Assembly: GCA_003017855.1 (NCBI GenBank)
Contig: PYER01000014.1
Coordinates: 1-50,586 of the forward strand
Source: a filamentous cyanobacterium CCT1
Lineage (GTDB): Bacteria; Cyanobacteriota; Cyanobacteriia; Phormidesmidales; Phormidesmidaceae
Reading direction: 5' to 3'
Length of the DNA: 50,586 nucleotides
This document shows, one piece after another, positions 45,506 through 50,586 of the stretch; the stretch's first letter is position 1, and each line of letters starts with the position of its first letter. The position numbers and the translations under genes were made by a program. Under the pieces are notes generated by a model. That model ran no database searches. It worked only from the letters and a program-made list of their open reading frames with translations, and was not told where the DNA came from.

Positions 45506-46567
45506 ATGCAAATTGATTTTCACCACGGGGTCACCTACGTGTGTGCTCGCCTGGCCGGGTTTGAGCATCGAGAGGCCAGCACTGTGGCCCACAGCGCCCA
45601 GTATGTTGACGACTCAACCCAGGCGGGGCTGATTCGCTTTGACAATGGCGCGATGTTCGATCGCATCAGCTCGGCCCACAAAATGCTCGACTACCGCAAC
45701 TTCAAGGAGTTGGCCAACTGCAAAGTGTGGATTCCGTTTCACTTTTTGCCGGGCAACGGTGGTTTACCGGCGGGCCAGGATCCACCCGGTACATTCATTG
45801 AAAAACTGATCTGTAGGCCCAATAGCCCTGTCGCCCAGGCGATGGTGCGCGAATGCATTGAGCAGCGCTACCGCAGCTACGGGTTGTACCGCCTGGGCAT
45901 TACCCTGCACGTGTTTGCCGATACCTGGGCGCATCAGGGCTTTGCGGGGGTCAGCCACGAAATTAACAGCGCCCGCGACCTGGTGGACGGCAACAACAAG
46001 CCCGACCAGAGTTTGATGAACCGGCTGAAGGGCTTTTTTATCGGCGGGGCGCTGCCCCTGGGCCACGGCACGGTGCTGAGCAACCCCGACAAGCCCTACC
46101 TGCGCTGGGGCTACACCAATGGACGGGGCGAAAAAATTAGCCGCGACAACCCCAGAGACTATTTAGAAGCTGCTGATGAAATGTGCAAAGCCATGCAGCG
46201 GTATCGGTTGGGCGACGCCGACGCCTGCGTGCCCGGTTTGCCTGAGGCCGATCGAGCCAGAGTTGCGGCGCTGTTTGAAACCACCTATGGTGAGGGCGAT
46301 CGCCGCCATCAGCAGTGGCTCGCCCACATTGCCCAGGGCAGCTTTAGCTTTGGCCCTGCCGAGGTTAGCTACATTGCCCACGGCTACGGGTCTTGGAAGC
46401 ATCGAGCGCTAGGGGTAGCGGGGGAAGGCGATCGCAAGGAGACGCGCATTGCCTACTCACCCCAGTTTTTAACCAGCCACTGGAAGCTCTTCCACGACGC
46501 ACTACAGGCCCATCACTTTTATATCATTCACGACTTGTTGCCGCAGTATGGGATCTGTGTCGCTTAG
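45506..46567 (+). CDS. DUF6765 family protein
   Basis: 353 aa. The start MQIDFHHGVTYVCARLAGF, then ASTVAHSAQYVDDST, LGITLHVFADTWAHQGFAGV and the HHFYIIHDLL end are the DUF6765 pattern. Many conserved His and Asp residues (HH..., HVFADTWAHQ) suggest a metal-dependent phospholipase-C-like or HD-like helical hydrolase, but no activity is known. It stands alone. Confidence 0.85.
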   Translation: MQIDFHHGVTYVCARLAGFEHREASTVAHSAQYVDDSTQAGLIRFDNGAMFDRISSAHKMLDYRNFKELANCKVWIPFHFLPGNGGLPAGQDPPGTFIEKLICRPNSPVAQAMVRECIEQRYRSYGLYRLGITLHVFADTWAHQGFAGVSHEINSARDLVDGNNKPDQSLMNRLKGFFIGGALPLGHGTVLSNPDKPYLRWGYTNGRGEKISRDNPRDYLEAADEMCKAMQRYRLGDADACVPGLPEADRARVAALFETTYGEGDRRHQQWLAHIAQGSFSFGPAEVSYIAHGYGSWKHRALGVAGEGDRKETRIAYSPQFLTSHWKLFHDALQAHHFYIIHDLLPQYGICVA

Positions 46568-46614
46568 AGGGTGGATGGGTAGGTGAGTGGGTGAGTGGAT
46601 GGGTGGATGGGGAG
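46566..46614. repeat. Low-complexity GGTGGATGGGTAGGTGAGTG array
   Basis: Degenerate 4-bp periodic repeat of GGTG/GGAT/AGTG words directly after the DUF6765 stop. A near-identical array lies at 50436-50480. No gene is seen in the rest of the gap to 46950. The sequence there includes a GGGGGACGGGC run and AT-rich bits. Confidence 0.65.
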
Positions 46615-46950
46615 GTGTTGCTGACAGCGTTAGCAGTGGGTAATACCAGATCCGAAGCACGTCACTCGAATTCTTAACAGGTGGCTTGCGTAGGGGCAAA
46701 CGGTGTTTGCCCAGCTCAACAGGGGGTAGCCAAGGCAGATTCGGTATTACAGCTGGTAGAGGGTTTAGCACAGTGTCAATCCAGCTGATATAGGATTTTG
46801 ATGCATTACGGCTATGCCGCAAAATCATTAGATGCTCTCCGCTACATGCCAAAGTTTTCCTGCAAAAAGGAACCTAAGATAGGGGGACGGGCTATGCTAA
46901 GCCTTGGTTCGCCCCCCCCATTTGTAACGGCCCATCTGTAACGAGTTCCC

Positions 46951-47952
46951 GTGGTTTCCCCTGTCATTCCCCGTCCCGCTCTAGATGTTTCGCCACCGCC
47001 ACCGTCGCGCGCTAAAGCGGCCCGCCTGCGGCCAAAATGGCGGCGATCGCTGCCGCGTGTCAAGCATCCGCAGGTGTGGGGCCTGGGGCTGGGTAGCTTG
47101 ACTCTGGGCCTGGTCAACGGTGCCCTGGTGATTTCGGCTGGTATTGCCCTGGTGGCGTACCAGCAGATATTGCAGCTCTCGCCGCGCCAGCGTAAGGGGC
47201 TAATGCAGCGTCTTCAGCAGGGGTTGCCGCTGCCGACGTCGCTCCAGCAGCAGGCGTTTATGTTGGCCGGGGTAGCGGGGGTGAGCACCTACACATTTAC
47301 CGCCCTGTGGCACAGCACTCACTCGTTGCTGATGGCGCTGCTGCTGACTGGGCAGGGGGCATTGGCGCTGTTTGCGGTGGGGGCGCTGCTGCGATCGCCC
47401 CGTTCGGCAGAGCGCAGCGACGATCTGTGGGATGCCGCCCCCGTCGCTCAGGTGGAGCACAATCTGAGCCTGCTCAGCCATCCCGACCCGCTAAAACGGC
47501 TGGTGGCCGTGCGGCGGCTGGTACGGCTAGCCCACACTGACGAAGAGTATCTGGCGGGGATGTCTGTGCGATCGCACCTGATCGACTGCTTCGAGCTGCG
47601 GCTCAGCCAGGAAAGCGATGCGATCGTGCGATCGGCAATCGAAGAGGGGCTAATGCTGCTCCGCCAGGCCAAACCGCTATCGCCCAGCTTGGACACACCA
47701 TTTTCAGCAACATTCACCGCAGACACAGCTCTCGCCGTCGCCGAGTCAAGTCGTCCAAACTTAGAGACTCAGGAAGCGTCCACAGTCGACCTTTCATCTC
47801 CCTTGAATGCCTCAATACTGGAGGAGATTGAAACGACGGCAGCGGATCAAGTCTCTTTGCACGCAGATCCAGTGACATCGCCCCCTTCCCCACTCCCCAC
47901 TGCCAAAAGGCGACGAGGCGCTGTCGAATACGTCGAATATTTGGATATTTGA
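46951..47952 (+). CDS. Two-helix membrane protein with long cytoplasmic tail, unknown
   Basis: 333 aa starting at GTG. A basic, proline-rich N-terminus is followed by hydrophobic helices at ~48-70 (GSLTLGLVNGALVISAGIAL), ~102-118 and ~125-150. A helical region follows (NLSLLSHPDPLKRLVAVRRLVRL), HEAT-like, then a low-complexity tail ending YVEYLDI. Family not recognised. GC content normal; it ends just where the AT-rich thyX cassette begins. Confidence 0.6.
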   Translation: MVSPVIPRPALDVSPPPPSRAKAARLRPKWRRSLPRVKHPQVWGLGLGSLTLGLVNGALVISAGIALVAYQQILQLSPRQRKGLMQRLQQGLPLPTSLQQQAFMLAGVAGVSTYTFTALWHSTHSLLMALLLTGQGALALFAVGALLRSPRSAERSDDLWDAAPVAQVEHNLSLLSHPDPLKRLVAVRRLVRLAHTDEEYLAGMSVRSHLIDCFELRLSQESDAIVRSAIEEGLMLLRQAKPLSPSLDTPFSATFTADTALAVAESSRPNLETQEASTVDLSSPLNASILEEIETTAADQVSLHADPVTSPPSPLPTAKRRRGAVEYVEYLDI

Positions 47953-48037
47953 CTCATGTACGCTTTACTATAGAGTTTCGGATTCAAGTTTTCTTACCTT
48001 GAGCAATTGCTCTGTCAATCGATAAATCAATCCAAGT

Positions 48038-48772
48038 ATGACTACAAGCACTGCCAAAACAACTCATTCTATTGATCCCTTAGGAGATCGAAAAAGTCGT
48101 GTAGAGTTGGTTTCTCACATGGGAAGTGATTTAGATGTAGTAAATGACGCAAGAGCCAGCTTCGATAAAATTTCCGAAGAACTTGATGAGCAAGACATCA
48201 AATTAATAAAATATTTAATTGAACATCAACACACTAGTCCTTTTCGTGGTGTTGTATTCAAATTCAAAGTTAGAGCACCTCTATTTATATGTAGGCAGTG
48301 GTGGAAGCATGTCGTCGCTAGCAATCATAACGACGAGCAACTAGGATGGAATGAAAAGAGCTTTAGATATGTATCTGTAGATGATTCTGGAGATTTTTAT
48401 ATTCCAAATACATTTCGACAGCAAGCCAAGAATAACAAGCAGGCAACGATAGGTTCTTTAGATAGCGACAGAGCCATGGAAGCCGAGAAAATTTATGCAG
48501 AACAGTGCCGTTCAAGCTATGAATCATACTGCGCTCTGATTGAGCTTGGAGTAGGTAGAGAACAGGCCAGAGGAGTTTTAGTTCCTAGCGTTTACACGTC
48601 CTGGGTTTGGACAGTTTCTCTGCAATCCACATTGCATTTTATTGGCTTACGTAAAGGGAAAGGTGCCCAACAAGAAATTGGTTCGTATGCTGATGCAGTC
48701 TTAGAACTTATTAAAGACATTGTTCCTGAAACTATTCGTGCATGGGAAACTTGTGGCAGTTCCGATTTTTAG
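48038..48772 (+). CDS. thyX: FAD-dependent thymidylate synthase, divergent (phage-like) type
   Basis: Makes dTMP from dUMP with FAD and methylene-tetrahydrofolate. 244 aa. ThyX landmarks: HQHTSPFRGVVFKFKVRAPLFICRQWWKH, WNEKSFRYV, then REQARGVLVPSVYTSWVWTVSLQSTLHFIGLR and GAQQEIGSYA. The RHRx7S motif is altered: RQWWKHVVASNHNDEQLGWNEKS has Lys-His in place of Arg-His-Arg and a short insertion, a variant seen in phage and some bacterial ThyX proteins. Strongly AT-rich compared with flanking genes. The orphan 3' end of a canonical thyX lies at 50160-50401. Confidence 0.9.
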   Translation: MTTSTAKTTHSIDPLGDRKSRVELVSHMGSDLDVVNDARASFDKISEELDEQDIKLIKYLIEHQHTSPFRGVVFKFKVRAPLFICRQWWKHVVASNHNDEQLGWNEKSFRYVSVDDSGDFYIPNTFRQQAKNNKQATIGSLDSDRAMEAEKIYAEQCRSSYESYCALIELGVGREQARGVLVPSVYTSWVWTVSLQSTLHFIGLRKGKGAQQEIGSYADAVLELIKDIVPETIRAWETCGSSDF

Positions 48773-48998
48773 AAAACATGAACGACTGCATACTTTTGAA
48801 CTCTTTCTGTTTCGATTTGACGACTTAGCATTACGGTCTTTTTTGGCAATGCTAATAAGTCATGAAAGTCGCACAGCTTAGAAGAAGGCTTTTAATCCAA
48901 AGGTTTTAGATGTTCAACTTCATGCTGACTTTGTATATAGCCTTTCTTGTTCGTGTGAGGTACAGTAGAAAGCCTGAAACTATCGCTGTAAGATAATT

Positions 48999-50024
48999 TC
49001 AGATCTCGATTTGTACCTCATCCGCCATGAAAACGCTGTAACTTGTTGAAAAGCCGAGCGGAGTAGGAAGTAACCATTCGCGACAGATTTCTTCATAGCA
49101 TCGCGGCAAACTAGATAAGCCTTCCCAGATCTGTGTAATTGAGTTTCTTTGTCTTATTTCCTTTAACCATTCCTGGCTTTCCTCAGCGCTTAAATAAGAA
49201 ATGTCTGTTGAATCTGGCCAGGAAGAGGTTATATCTCCTGTTTCAACCTCAAGACATCCTCGAATAGAATGCAAATAATATTCAAGAATTTTCCAGTTTG
49301 TATCTTCCCAAAAATCGTATCTTAATAAGATTTTTGCAAAGTGTTGAGAAAGGCTAGTCAGCTCAAGTAGATCACTTACATAACTTAACTCTGCATTTTG
49401 ATATACAAATTTTTGGAACGCCGCAAATAACTTTGCTCTTTTTGCATACCAACCAAGTATTCGTTTTGTGGAATCCTGATCTCTTAAAAGGTTTTGAGTC
49501 GGGATATAAATTGTTCTAGTCCTAGATGAAGCATAATCTCTATCTCTGAATTTCGGAATAAGAATCTTATCAATGTAATCATTCAAACAAATGAAATAAC
49601 ATTTTTGAGTAGACAATTCGGCAACTACTAGGATTACAGGCAATGCAGCACCCATGCGCTGTATCGTGACTAGTTCAGACACCTCCAGAGGGAAAGCGAT
49701 AACCTCTAACTCACCCACTAAGTTTGATTTATCTTCAACAAAAACGGCTTTTTCAATATTGTATCTGTTGTAGATTTTTTGAGTTCTCCGTTGCGCCTTT
49801 TTCTTTCCTTTTAGCTGAATAAATAAATGCTCACCGAGAGTTTCAAATGAGCCTTCCTCTAAGCCCTCATGAATTGTCTGAAATACTTCTAGCGCATAGT
49901 CGATTCCATAATCTGGCCTGTAGTTTCGCAATACCCACCCTTCTGGAACTAGAGAGCGAAGGAGCTTCTGAGCATTTTCATCAATAATATGTTGTTCAGA
50001 CCTCTGTTTGCTACGTCTAGCCAT
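48999..50024 (-). CDS. DUF4365 domain protein, PD-(D/E)XK nuclease-like
   Basis: 341 aa. Residues ~10-170 are the DUF4365 domain. Asp38, Asp42 and Glu46 in RPDYGIDYALEVF, and the Gln70-x-Lys72 in LFIQLKGKKK, match the catalytic pattern of restriction-like nucleases. The rest (~180-341) is helical and unrecognised. The gene is AT-rich like the thyX next to it and converges with it. It lies between the replacement thyX and the old thyX fragment. A DNA-cutting role is inferred from the motif only. Confidence 0.8.
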   Translation of the reverse strand: MARRSKQRSEQHIIDENAQKLLRSLVPEGWVLRNYRPDYGIDYALEVFQTIHEGLEEGSFETLGEHLFIQLKGKKKAQRRTQKIYNRYNIEKAVFVEDKSNLVGELEVIAFPLEVSELVTIQRMGAALPVILVVAELSTQKCYFICLNDYIDKILIPKFRDRDYASSRTRTIYIPTQNLLRDQDSTKRILGWYAKRAKLFAAFQKFVYQNAELSYVSDLLELTSLSQHFAKILLRYDFWEDTNWKILEYYLHSIRGCLEVETGDITSSWPDSTDISYLSAEESQEWLKEIRQRNSITQIWEGLSSLPRCYEEICREWLLPTPLGFSTSYSVFMADEVQIEI

Positions 50025-50159
50025 GTTGAATAAATTGCCTTATTTTGGAGTGTCTTTTCACATGTTAATTAAAGCGGTTCTTATCCAGGAACAACACATT
50101 AGTCAAGCTCGTATAAATTTATATTAAATGCGTTAATCAATTCAGCTAATTCAAGCTTA

Positions 50160-50401
50160 ACCCAGGGCTTTGCTGAAGAGCACGCGCGGGGGCTAATTCC
50201 CTTTGATATTCGTCAGCACTGGGTGATGTCGGCCAACGTGCGATCGGTCATGCACCTGCTTGACCTGCGCTGGAAGGCCGATGCCCAGCTCGAAGCCCAA
50301 AAGATGTGCGAGGAAATTTGGCCCCACTTTGCCGCTTGGGTCCCGGCGATCGCCGCCTGGTATGAAGAGAATCGGCTGAAGAAGGCTCGGTTGGCACCGT
50401 G
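50160..50401 (+). pseudogene. 3' fragment of a canonical cyanobacterial thyX
   Basis: The frame reads GFAEEHARGLIPFDIRQHW, then VMSANVRSVMHLLDLRWK, ADAQLEAQ and EIWPHFAAWVPAIAAWYEENR, ending KKARLAP. It aligns in order with the last third of ThyX: EHARGLIP matches EQARGVLVP in the 48038 gene, and RSVMHLLDLRWKADAQLEAQ matches STLHFIGLRKGKGAQQEI. No start codon is available, and the frame runs only ~80 codons before meeting AT-rich DNA at about 50160. The sequence is GC-rich with a GCGATCGC site, so it is the original host gene. Confidence 0.85.
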
Positions 50402-50435
50402 AGTGGGTAACGGTCCCTGAGCAGAGTCGAAGGGG

Positions 50436-50480
50436 GTGGATGGGTGGATGAGTAGGTGAGTAGGTGGGTAAATGGGTGAG
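50436..50480. repeat. Low-complexity GGTGGATGGGTGGATGAGTAGG array, second copy
   Basis: A 4-bp periodic array nearly the same as at 46566-46614. It lies 35 bp after the thyX fragment. The short frame beyond it on the minus strand (about 27 codons, ending near 50488) is not convincing. Confidence 0.6.
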
Positions 50481-50586
50481 GGCTAGGTCCAGAGGGCGTC
50501 GGATGCTGTGGGTGCGATGGCGCTGAGTTGGTCAGCGGCGGTGGGGGTGAGGGGGTCGGTGGTCATCGTTAGTGAATCCGCAAGGG

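Follow-up and report, generated by a model that had tools for sequence, protein, structure and literature searches.

It has long been puzzling how a distant homologue can take over the exact chromosomal position of an essential gene, since intermediate stages of such an exchange are rarely seen. The question is raised here by the thymidylate synthase locus of the filamentous cyanobacterium CCT1 (G000), which lies near one end of a stretch of 50,586 nucleotides, hereafter the window, that makes up the whole of contig PYER01000014.1 (C105) in assembly GCA_003017855.1 (6.85 Mb in 546 contigs, listed as 96.8% complete). At this locus only the 3′ tail of the resident canonical gene, thyX-A, is left, preceded by an AT-rich block that carries a complete but divergent incoming gene, thyX-B, and a convergent gene encoding a DUF4365 nuclease. 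The comparisons described below make it probable that the essential thyX was recently displaced in situ by a xenologue, with thyX-B and a linked passenger DUF4365 gene having arrived as foreign DNA; the in-situ displacement itself appears well supported by gene order and sequence similarity.

The putatively foreign block covers positions 47953-50162 (~2.2 kb) and stands where the first ~160 codons of thyX-A were. Its GC content is 38.2% versus 54.9% for the whole window, none of 484 sliding windows of the same length being as GC-poor, and the GC content at third codon positions (GC3) is 0.30 in the block versus ~0.7 in the neighbouring genes. On its left side, the foreign DNA starts at most a few bases from the stop codon (47952) of p46951 (46951-47952, plus strand), the native left flank and a conserved upstream neighbour of thyX in the genus, which belongs to no confident family (Pfam matches below the cut-off). 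An AT-rich leader of 85 bp (47953-48037, 36.5% GC), aligned with a similar leader upstream of thyX-B in Leptolyngbya sp. DLM2.Bin27 (G003, of the same genus as G000), is followed by thyX-B (48038-48772, plus strand, 244 amino acids), by a spacer separating the convergent 3′-ends of thyX-B and the DUF4365 gene (48773-48998; 68 bp in Cyanobacteria bacterium Co-bin13, G388), by the DUF4365 gene itself (48999-50024, minus strand, 341 amino acids, with a PD-(D/E)XK nuclease domain and a conserved C-terminal half), and by 138 bp of AT-rich DNA (50025-50162, 31% GC) that reaches from upstream of this gene to the thyX-A junction. The thyX-A remnant, i.e. the last 79 codons plus the stop, the 5′ part being gone, occupies 50163-50402 on the plus strand. 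The original prediction had described a sharply AT-rich block, a complete but different ThyX, a convergent DUF4365 gene with residues D38, D42, E46, Q70 and K72, and a start-less canonical ThyX tail, and each of these was confirmed, the tail being shifted slightly from the predicted 50160-50401.

thyX-B encodes a complete flavin adenine dinucleotide (FAD)-dependent thymidylate synthase of a second cyanobacterial lineage: its protein matched Pfam Thy1 (PF02511) over profile positions 1-191 (E 1.3e-43) and scored 137.8 bits against NCBIfam thyX (TIGR02170; cut-off 87.9) as a full-length member of the family. It is 90% identical to the G003 protein, 78% to that of Co-bin13 and ~66-74% to other cyanobacterial copies, and compared with the thyX-A proteins it gave only local matches of 22-29% identity. 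Where a solved ThyX has the RHR-type motif, the aligned thyX-B protein has K90-H91-V92, and KHV is also present in the Co-bin13 copy. thyX-B is the sole complete thymidylate synthase found in the assembly, in which no ThyA was found and ThyX was found at two places only, thyX-B and the thyX-A tail; the second intact canonical thyX elsewhere that would have spoken against a replacement was thus not found there. A known phage was considered as the source of thyX-B: 16 viral copies (48-56% identity) form the sister group of the cyanobacterial group, with one viral contig (70%) falling inside it, a pattern that does not point to descent from a known phage.

The thyX-A tail is a recognizable piece of the resident gene, matching Thy1 over profile positions 131-191 (E 8.5e-17). 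Its protein is 100% identical over 79 amino acids to the thyX-A C-terminus in five same-genus loci and 91-99% identical in 14 more, and its DNA is about equally close (89-91%) to several relatives, G016 included. Homology to thyX-A starts at ~50163, and the rest of the gene was not found in the window, where a search with the full thyX-A protein returned only the tail, a weak match to thyX-B and one match at chance level. Compared with G016, the tail has a nonsynonymous proportion of differences (pN) of 0.005 and a synonymous one (pS) of 0.40, so that almost no amino-acid change has taken place yet; from this contrast it would follow that thyX-A was a working gene until recently and that its truncation is recent.

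The place now held by the block belongs to thyX-A in the relatives. A complete thyX-A follows the p46951 homologue directly, with spacers of 9-83 nt, in 18 of 18 same-genus loci, namely those fetched with the thyX-A start on the contig; G018, whose thyX is split over two contigs, was left out, and G272 and G339 have a canonical thyX at loci outside this set. The upstream p46951 homologues of the 18 loci share 42-75% amino-acid identity with p46951, the best being that of G016 (74.6%), and both p46951 and the DNA preceding it are closest to G016, the sister of G000 on the rpoB tree; judged from these similarities, the upstream flank of the insert is native. No match to thyX-B was found in the 18 loci. 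The incoming gene hence occupies a slot held by the resident in relatives, in agreement with the original prediction, by which the resident thyX lost its 5′ part to arriving DNA that supplied a thyX copy of its own, and the intact canonical thyX that it had suggested looking for in this slot of close relatives is there. Beside this regular pattern, G005, G022 and G390 gave no thyX match, and neither ThyX nor ThyA was found in G005 or in G022, which is listed as 100% complete. G017 has a second, quite different ThyX (L048, G017:C23; 42% over the tail) besides thyX-A in the usual slot, and a partial ThyA-like match within a 527-codon frame was seen at G002:C146:27619-28083, the thyX-A that this genome has as well being one of those with an insert.

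Among the 63 genomes of the family, thyX-B is present in three, i.e. G000, G003 and Co-bin13, always in the p46951 slot. On a 9425-base contig of G003, p46951 and the similar leader are followed by thyX-B and then by the downstream genes of the thyX-A relatives, and neither thyX-A nor DUF4365 was found in this genome. One contig of Co-bin13 carries p46951, thyX-B and, in convergent orientation, the C-terminal part of a DUF4365 gene (58% identity), within which the contig ends; a second contig, which starts 13 bases ahead of the thyX-A start codon (ATG), carries that gene intact. Both are colinear with the congener G143, at 86.3% identity up to the p46951 stop and at 88.3% from five bases further on, and the thyX of G143 has an interruption like that of the insert-bearing thyX-A genes of the genus considered below. 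The simplest reading of Co-bin13, in which the join of the two contigs is itself inferred, is that the incoming DNA entered between p46951 and thyX-A and that both thyX genes stayed. The three carriers may thus be arranged as a series, i.e. both copies in Co-bin13, a truncated resident in G000 and a clean replacement in G003. Along this series, AT-rich foreign DNA with thyX-B and a DUF4365 gene would have entered the short gap between p46951 and thyX-A; two thymidylate synthases would have coexisted in the cell for a time, as they appear to do in Co-bin13 now; thyX-A would then have lost its first ~160 codons, a loss that would leave thyX-B as the only source of deoxythymidine monophosphate (dTMP); and G003 would represent a related case run to its end. 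We infer this order of steps, the two-copy stage and a role of DUF4365 as passenger rather than driver of the swap.

The three carriers belong to separate lineages. On a rpoB tree of 26 genomes (G005 was not in the rpoB search, and G021, with a fragmented gene, is not in the tree), G000 grouped with G016 (100/98), G003 stood near G011 and G272, and Co-bin13 grouped with G143 (100/100), so that the thyX-B state requires three changes, which are forced by well-supported branches; its distribution thus departs from the host tree, with the caveat that the carriers branch in the same order in both trees. In the ThyX-B tree, built from hits with at least 190 aligned columns and with identical sequences collapsed (87 to 66 rows; L107-L111 left out), the proteins of G000, G003 and Co-bin13 form one clade (99/92) inside the cyanobacterial group. 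The GC contents of thyX-B, 40% in G000 versus 46% in G003, point to separate arrivals from related donors. A recent exchange of thyX-B between G000 and G003 was considered as well and rejected, the synonymous divergence (dS) of 1.11 between the two copies, above that of host genes, arguing against it.

The exchange seems to have taken place in other cyanobacteria too. For 17 further genomes of the class, in which ThyA was not sought, the sole ThyX match is a thyX-B protein. In one family (f15), the thyX-B genomes G137, G215 and G228 have genes in common with the thyX-A genomes G056, G117 and G305 both upstream and downstream of thyX; in another (f26), the thyX-B of G155 is preceded by a p46951 homologue and one more gene, both of which stand immediately before thyX-A in G207. 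The genome of Xenococcus sp. MO_188.B8 has, immediately 5′ of an open 244-codon thyX-B frame, a thyX-A that carries an internal deletion and several stops. No DUF4365 gene was found at the f15 and f26 swap loci. On this gene order, in-place exchange of thyX-A for thyX-B is recurrent and occurs in differing neighbourhoods, so a single common flank cannot explain the recurrence. The open-licence literature that was searched, subscription papers lying outside the search, held no report joining thyX, gene replacement, horizontal gene transfer and cyanobacteria.

thyX is itself a repeated target of mobile elements, which bears on why a cell might exchange it. In seven of the 18 thyX-A loci (L032, L033, L037, L039, L043, L051 and L053) an insert interrupts the gene between SFDVQ and SFRY; that of G007 (L037), the one tested, matched Intein_splicing and HNH above the Pfam cut-offs, i.e. 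it is an intein with an HNH domain, and that of G013 (L043) is shortened. An intein endonuclease that cuts intein-free thyX-A could favour cells with a target-free version in the slot, and such pressure would agree with the frequency of the insert, with the similar interruption in G143, the congener of Co-bin13, and with the strong difference of thyX-B around the intein place. We nevertheless regard it as a very unlikely cause of the swap: the thyX-A of the sister genome G016 is intein-free, the 79-codon remnant lies downstream of the intein site and is uninformative, and thyX-B of other cyanobacteria is interrupted by introns near the same motif. These comprise a group I intron in a Xenococcaceae metagenome-assembled genome (MAG) (L107, 5650-5962) and a group II intron with a putative reverse-transcriptase frame in Waterburya (L110, between ~3560 and 6003), and inserts at the same place as that of L107, without an Rfam match, occur in the thyX-B of L108 and L109.

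The second gene of the block matched the DUF4365 family (PF14280) with 48.6 bits (cut-off 24.3; E 1.1e-12), and D42, Q70 and K72, out of the residues D38, D42, E46, Q70 and K72 that are all present, match the catalytic D plus Q-x-K pattern. In published accounts, DUF4365 is the nuclease domain of SPARDA, with catalytic D41, Q60 and K62 (PMC12205087) or with Q62 and K64 in use and unspecific DNA degradation upon activation (PMC10810196), and the domain is placed among the PD-(D/E)XK nucleases (PMC6299218). A SPARDA system was considered for the window and rejected, as no Piwi/Argonaute partner was found in the whole assembly and the gene neighbours are thyX-B and the thyX-A tail. The C-terminal part of the protein is constrained between G000 and Co-bin13 (pN 0.28, pS saturated). 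Searches with the protein and with a six-row profile gave no relevant match among solved structures, a structure prediction from four sequences reached a mean predicted local distance difference test (pLDDT) score of 36 and was not used, and neither was the one weak DUF4365 match in PADLOC (PDC-M02A, E 0.00029).

Of 388 genomes of the class, 72 have a DUF4365 domain of some kind. Relatives of the window's own protein were found in two of the 63 family genomes and in two of the 388 class genomes, one of the latter being the genome of the window and the other having a copy interrupted by a stop. Further relatives lie on two plasmids and in two related viral contigs (a third viral contig gave a 31-residue match only), and no match was found in phage records; no thyX was found in the stretches around the plasmid and viral copies. 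In both viral contigs DUF4365 stands between two tail genes; in related contigs these either adjoin (-3 to 3 bases; 7 of 66 loci) or have other genes between them, the next tail gene having been placed in 66 of 78 loci, two of them misplaced. This IMG/VR site (L246-L323, after ~6414), which is either empty or filled by at least several differing cargo genes including DUF4365, looks like a hotspot for defence genes. Taken with the family resemblance, the likeliest role of the window's protein is that of a passenger defence nuclease which would degrade nucleic acid on some trigger.

How closely the nuclease gene is tied to thyX-B was judged from its recurrence. Both family genomes with a DUF4365 gene of the window type are among the three with thyX-B, and in both the two genes are adjacent and convergent. 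Chance pairing was rejected, the probability of such co-occurrence in 63 genomes being 3/1953, with adjacency and convergence in both genomes in addition, and since the pair recurs in a second genus, that of Co-bin13, the pairing is taken not to be chance. Over the 388 class genomes, DUF4365 and thyX are adjacent only in the window, among the matches listed with both genes placed, and Co-bin13 gave the single match to a window-type DUF4365 among 35 thyX-B loci searched, i.e. none was found in G003 or 33 other loci within the flanks examined; some genomes stand twice among these loci, flank lengths vary, and a DUF4365 far from the window's subfamily could escape. Its recurrence makes the thyX-B/DUF4365 pair a real cassette in the family, yet the swap does not always involve the nuclease, and of the pairing as a system that had been proposed, the recurrence stood in one further genome and constant linkage did not. 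In the open-licence literature, with the same scope as above, DUF4365 was not found together with thyX or thymidylate synthase.

A nuclease beside a gene that duplicates its own insertion site had originally been said to recall free-standing homing endonucleases, with a selfish or defence cassette as a possibility. In a nuclease-driven course, DUF4365 would cut the cassette-free p46951/thyX-A locus, repair would copy the cassette, and the target-free thyX-B would rescue the cell. Several features fit such a course: the pair recurs in the genus of Co-bin13 in the same slot and the same convergent order, both family genomes with a DUF4365 gene of the window type are among the three with thyX-B, the insert meets native flanks at the gene edge, occupied and empty alleles alternate among close relatives with the well-supported sister G016 having a complete thyX-A in the slot, the nuclease domain has matching catalytic residues, and thyX is repeatedly invaded by an intein and introns here. 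It is because the alleles alternate, the insert meets the native flank at the gene edge and the pair recurs that homing or cleave-and-rescue keeps some probability. However, G003 either swapped without DUF4365 or has lost it, the f15 and f26 swaps proceeded with no DUF4365 found, linkage holds for one locus (Co-bin13) of the 35, other relatives of the nuclease, on plasmids or at a phage cargo site, have no thyX in their vicinity, and Co-bin13 appears to retain an intact thyX-A beside the nuclease gene; once activated, a characterized DUF4365 nuclease breaks down DNA irrespective of sequence (PMC10810196). These observations weaken the homing or selfish role, and a nuclease-driven cassette seems to us improbable. 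Its stricter form, natural cleave-and-rescue, in which DUF4365 would destroy the recipient thyX-A allele or the p46951/thyX-A junction, thyX-B would restore function, and the pair would spread through the cyanobacterial family at one slot, is more doubtful still.

Displacement by foreign DNA, the reading we prefer, has points against it as well. The two-copy state of Co-bin13 depends on joining two contigs, the MAG being listed at 78% completeness and 5% contamination, and a mixed population would give a similar picture; the G000 insert has its right junction documented by a single assembly. Outside the family, the f15 thyX-A genomes G314 and G169 share two upstream genes only, the f15 thyX-B genome G095 (Pantanalinema sp. 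GBBB05) showed no flank in common with the thyX-A genomes, and in the f26 genome G239 the two upstream genes lie ~2 kb further off. The defence role of DUF4365 is drawn from family resemblance and genomic place. Finally, the carriers have the order ((G000,G003),G388) in the ThyX-B and in the rpoB tree alike, and the dS of thyX-B between G000 and G003 (1.11) compares with 0.82 for rpoB and 0.88 and 0.92 for two flank genes. With the same order in both trees and a thyX-B divergence at least that of the host, one ancient arrival followed by many losses has to be reckoned with, and we hold it to be less likely. In its fullest form, a tandem of p46951, thyX-B, DUF4365 and thyX-A would have stood in the family ancestor, one or the other thyX being lost in each lineage, and Co-bin13 would resemble that tandem, just as the shared order and a divergence not below that of the host would be expected. 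Many clean losses of two genes would be needed, however, in view of the 18 loci with their short spacers and no other thyX-B match; the thyX-B of G000 lies at 40% GC beside genes of ~60%, a difference that long residence should have erased; and the G000 thyX-A tail has hardly changed, so that its loss is recent. We consider an ancient tandem unlikely.

Around the cassette, no Rfam families were found at 46500-50586, no convincing terminal repeats were found, and promoter-like sites were not above their number in shuffled sequences. By eye, similar G-rich short repeats of the gtgagtg/gatgggt type flank the p46951-thyX locus at 46565-46615 and 50430-50480.

If displacement is accepted, a complete resident, probably both copies (Co-bin13), a truncated resident and a clean replacement can be seen together in related genomes, and the same gene has been exchanged in several cyanobacterial families. 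The visible stages make the order of steps, the selection acting on them and the roles of a linked nuclease or intein directly testable, and the link with DUF4365 supplies a defined protein whose part as helper or passenger can be put to the test.

Among known systems, the window's protein shares with the DUF4365/DREN nuclease of SPARDA a PD-(D/E)XK domain with the D...QxK pattern (PMC10810196, PMC12205087, PMC6299218). It differs in standing alone, with another C-terminal half and with no Piwi protein found in the assembly. We know of no assignment of DUF4365 to a homing nuclease family. Free-standing homing endonucleases by essential phage genes (PMC10448857) likewise place a nuclease beside a nucleotide-metabolism gene and have empty and occupied alleles. 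Here, in contrast, thyX-B is a very divergent replacement and not an exchanged allele, and homing by DUF4365 would be hypothetical. Synthetic cleave-and-rescue gene drives are man-made and combine a nuclease with a resistant rescue copy of its essential target; the locus shares with them a nuclease gene and a divergent copy of an essential gene, targeting of thyX-A being hypothetical here. The reading preferred here corresponds to xenologous gene displacement in situ, in which a foreign homologue supplants the resident gene at its own position on the chromosome, as the foreign thyX-B would have done with thyX-A; what sets the present case apart is that stages of the process are visible, that the slot was hit in several lineages, and that a nuclease gene is linked to the incoming gene in two genera.

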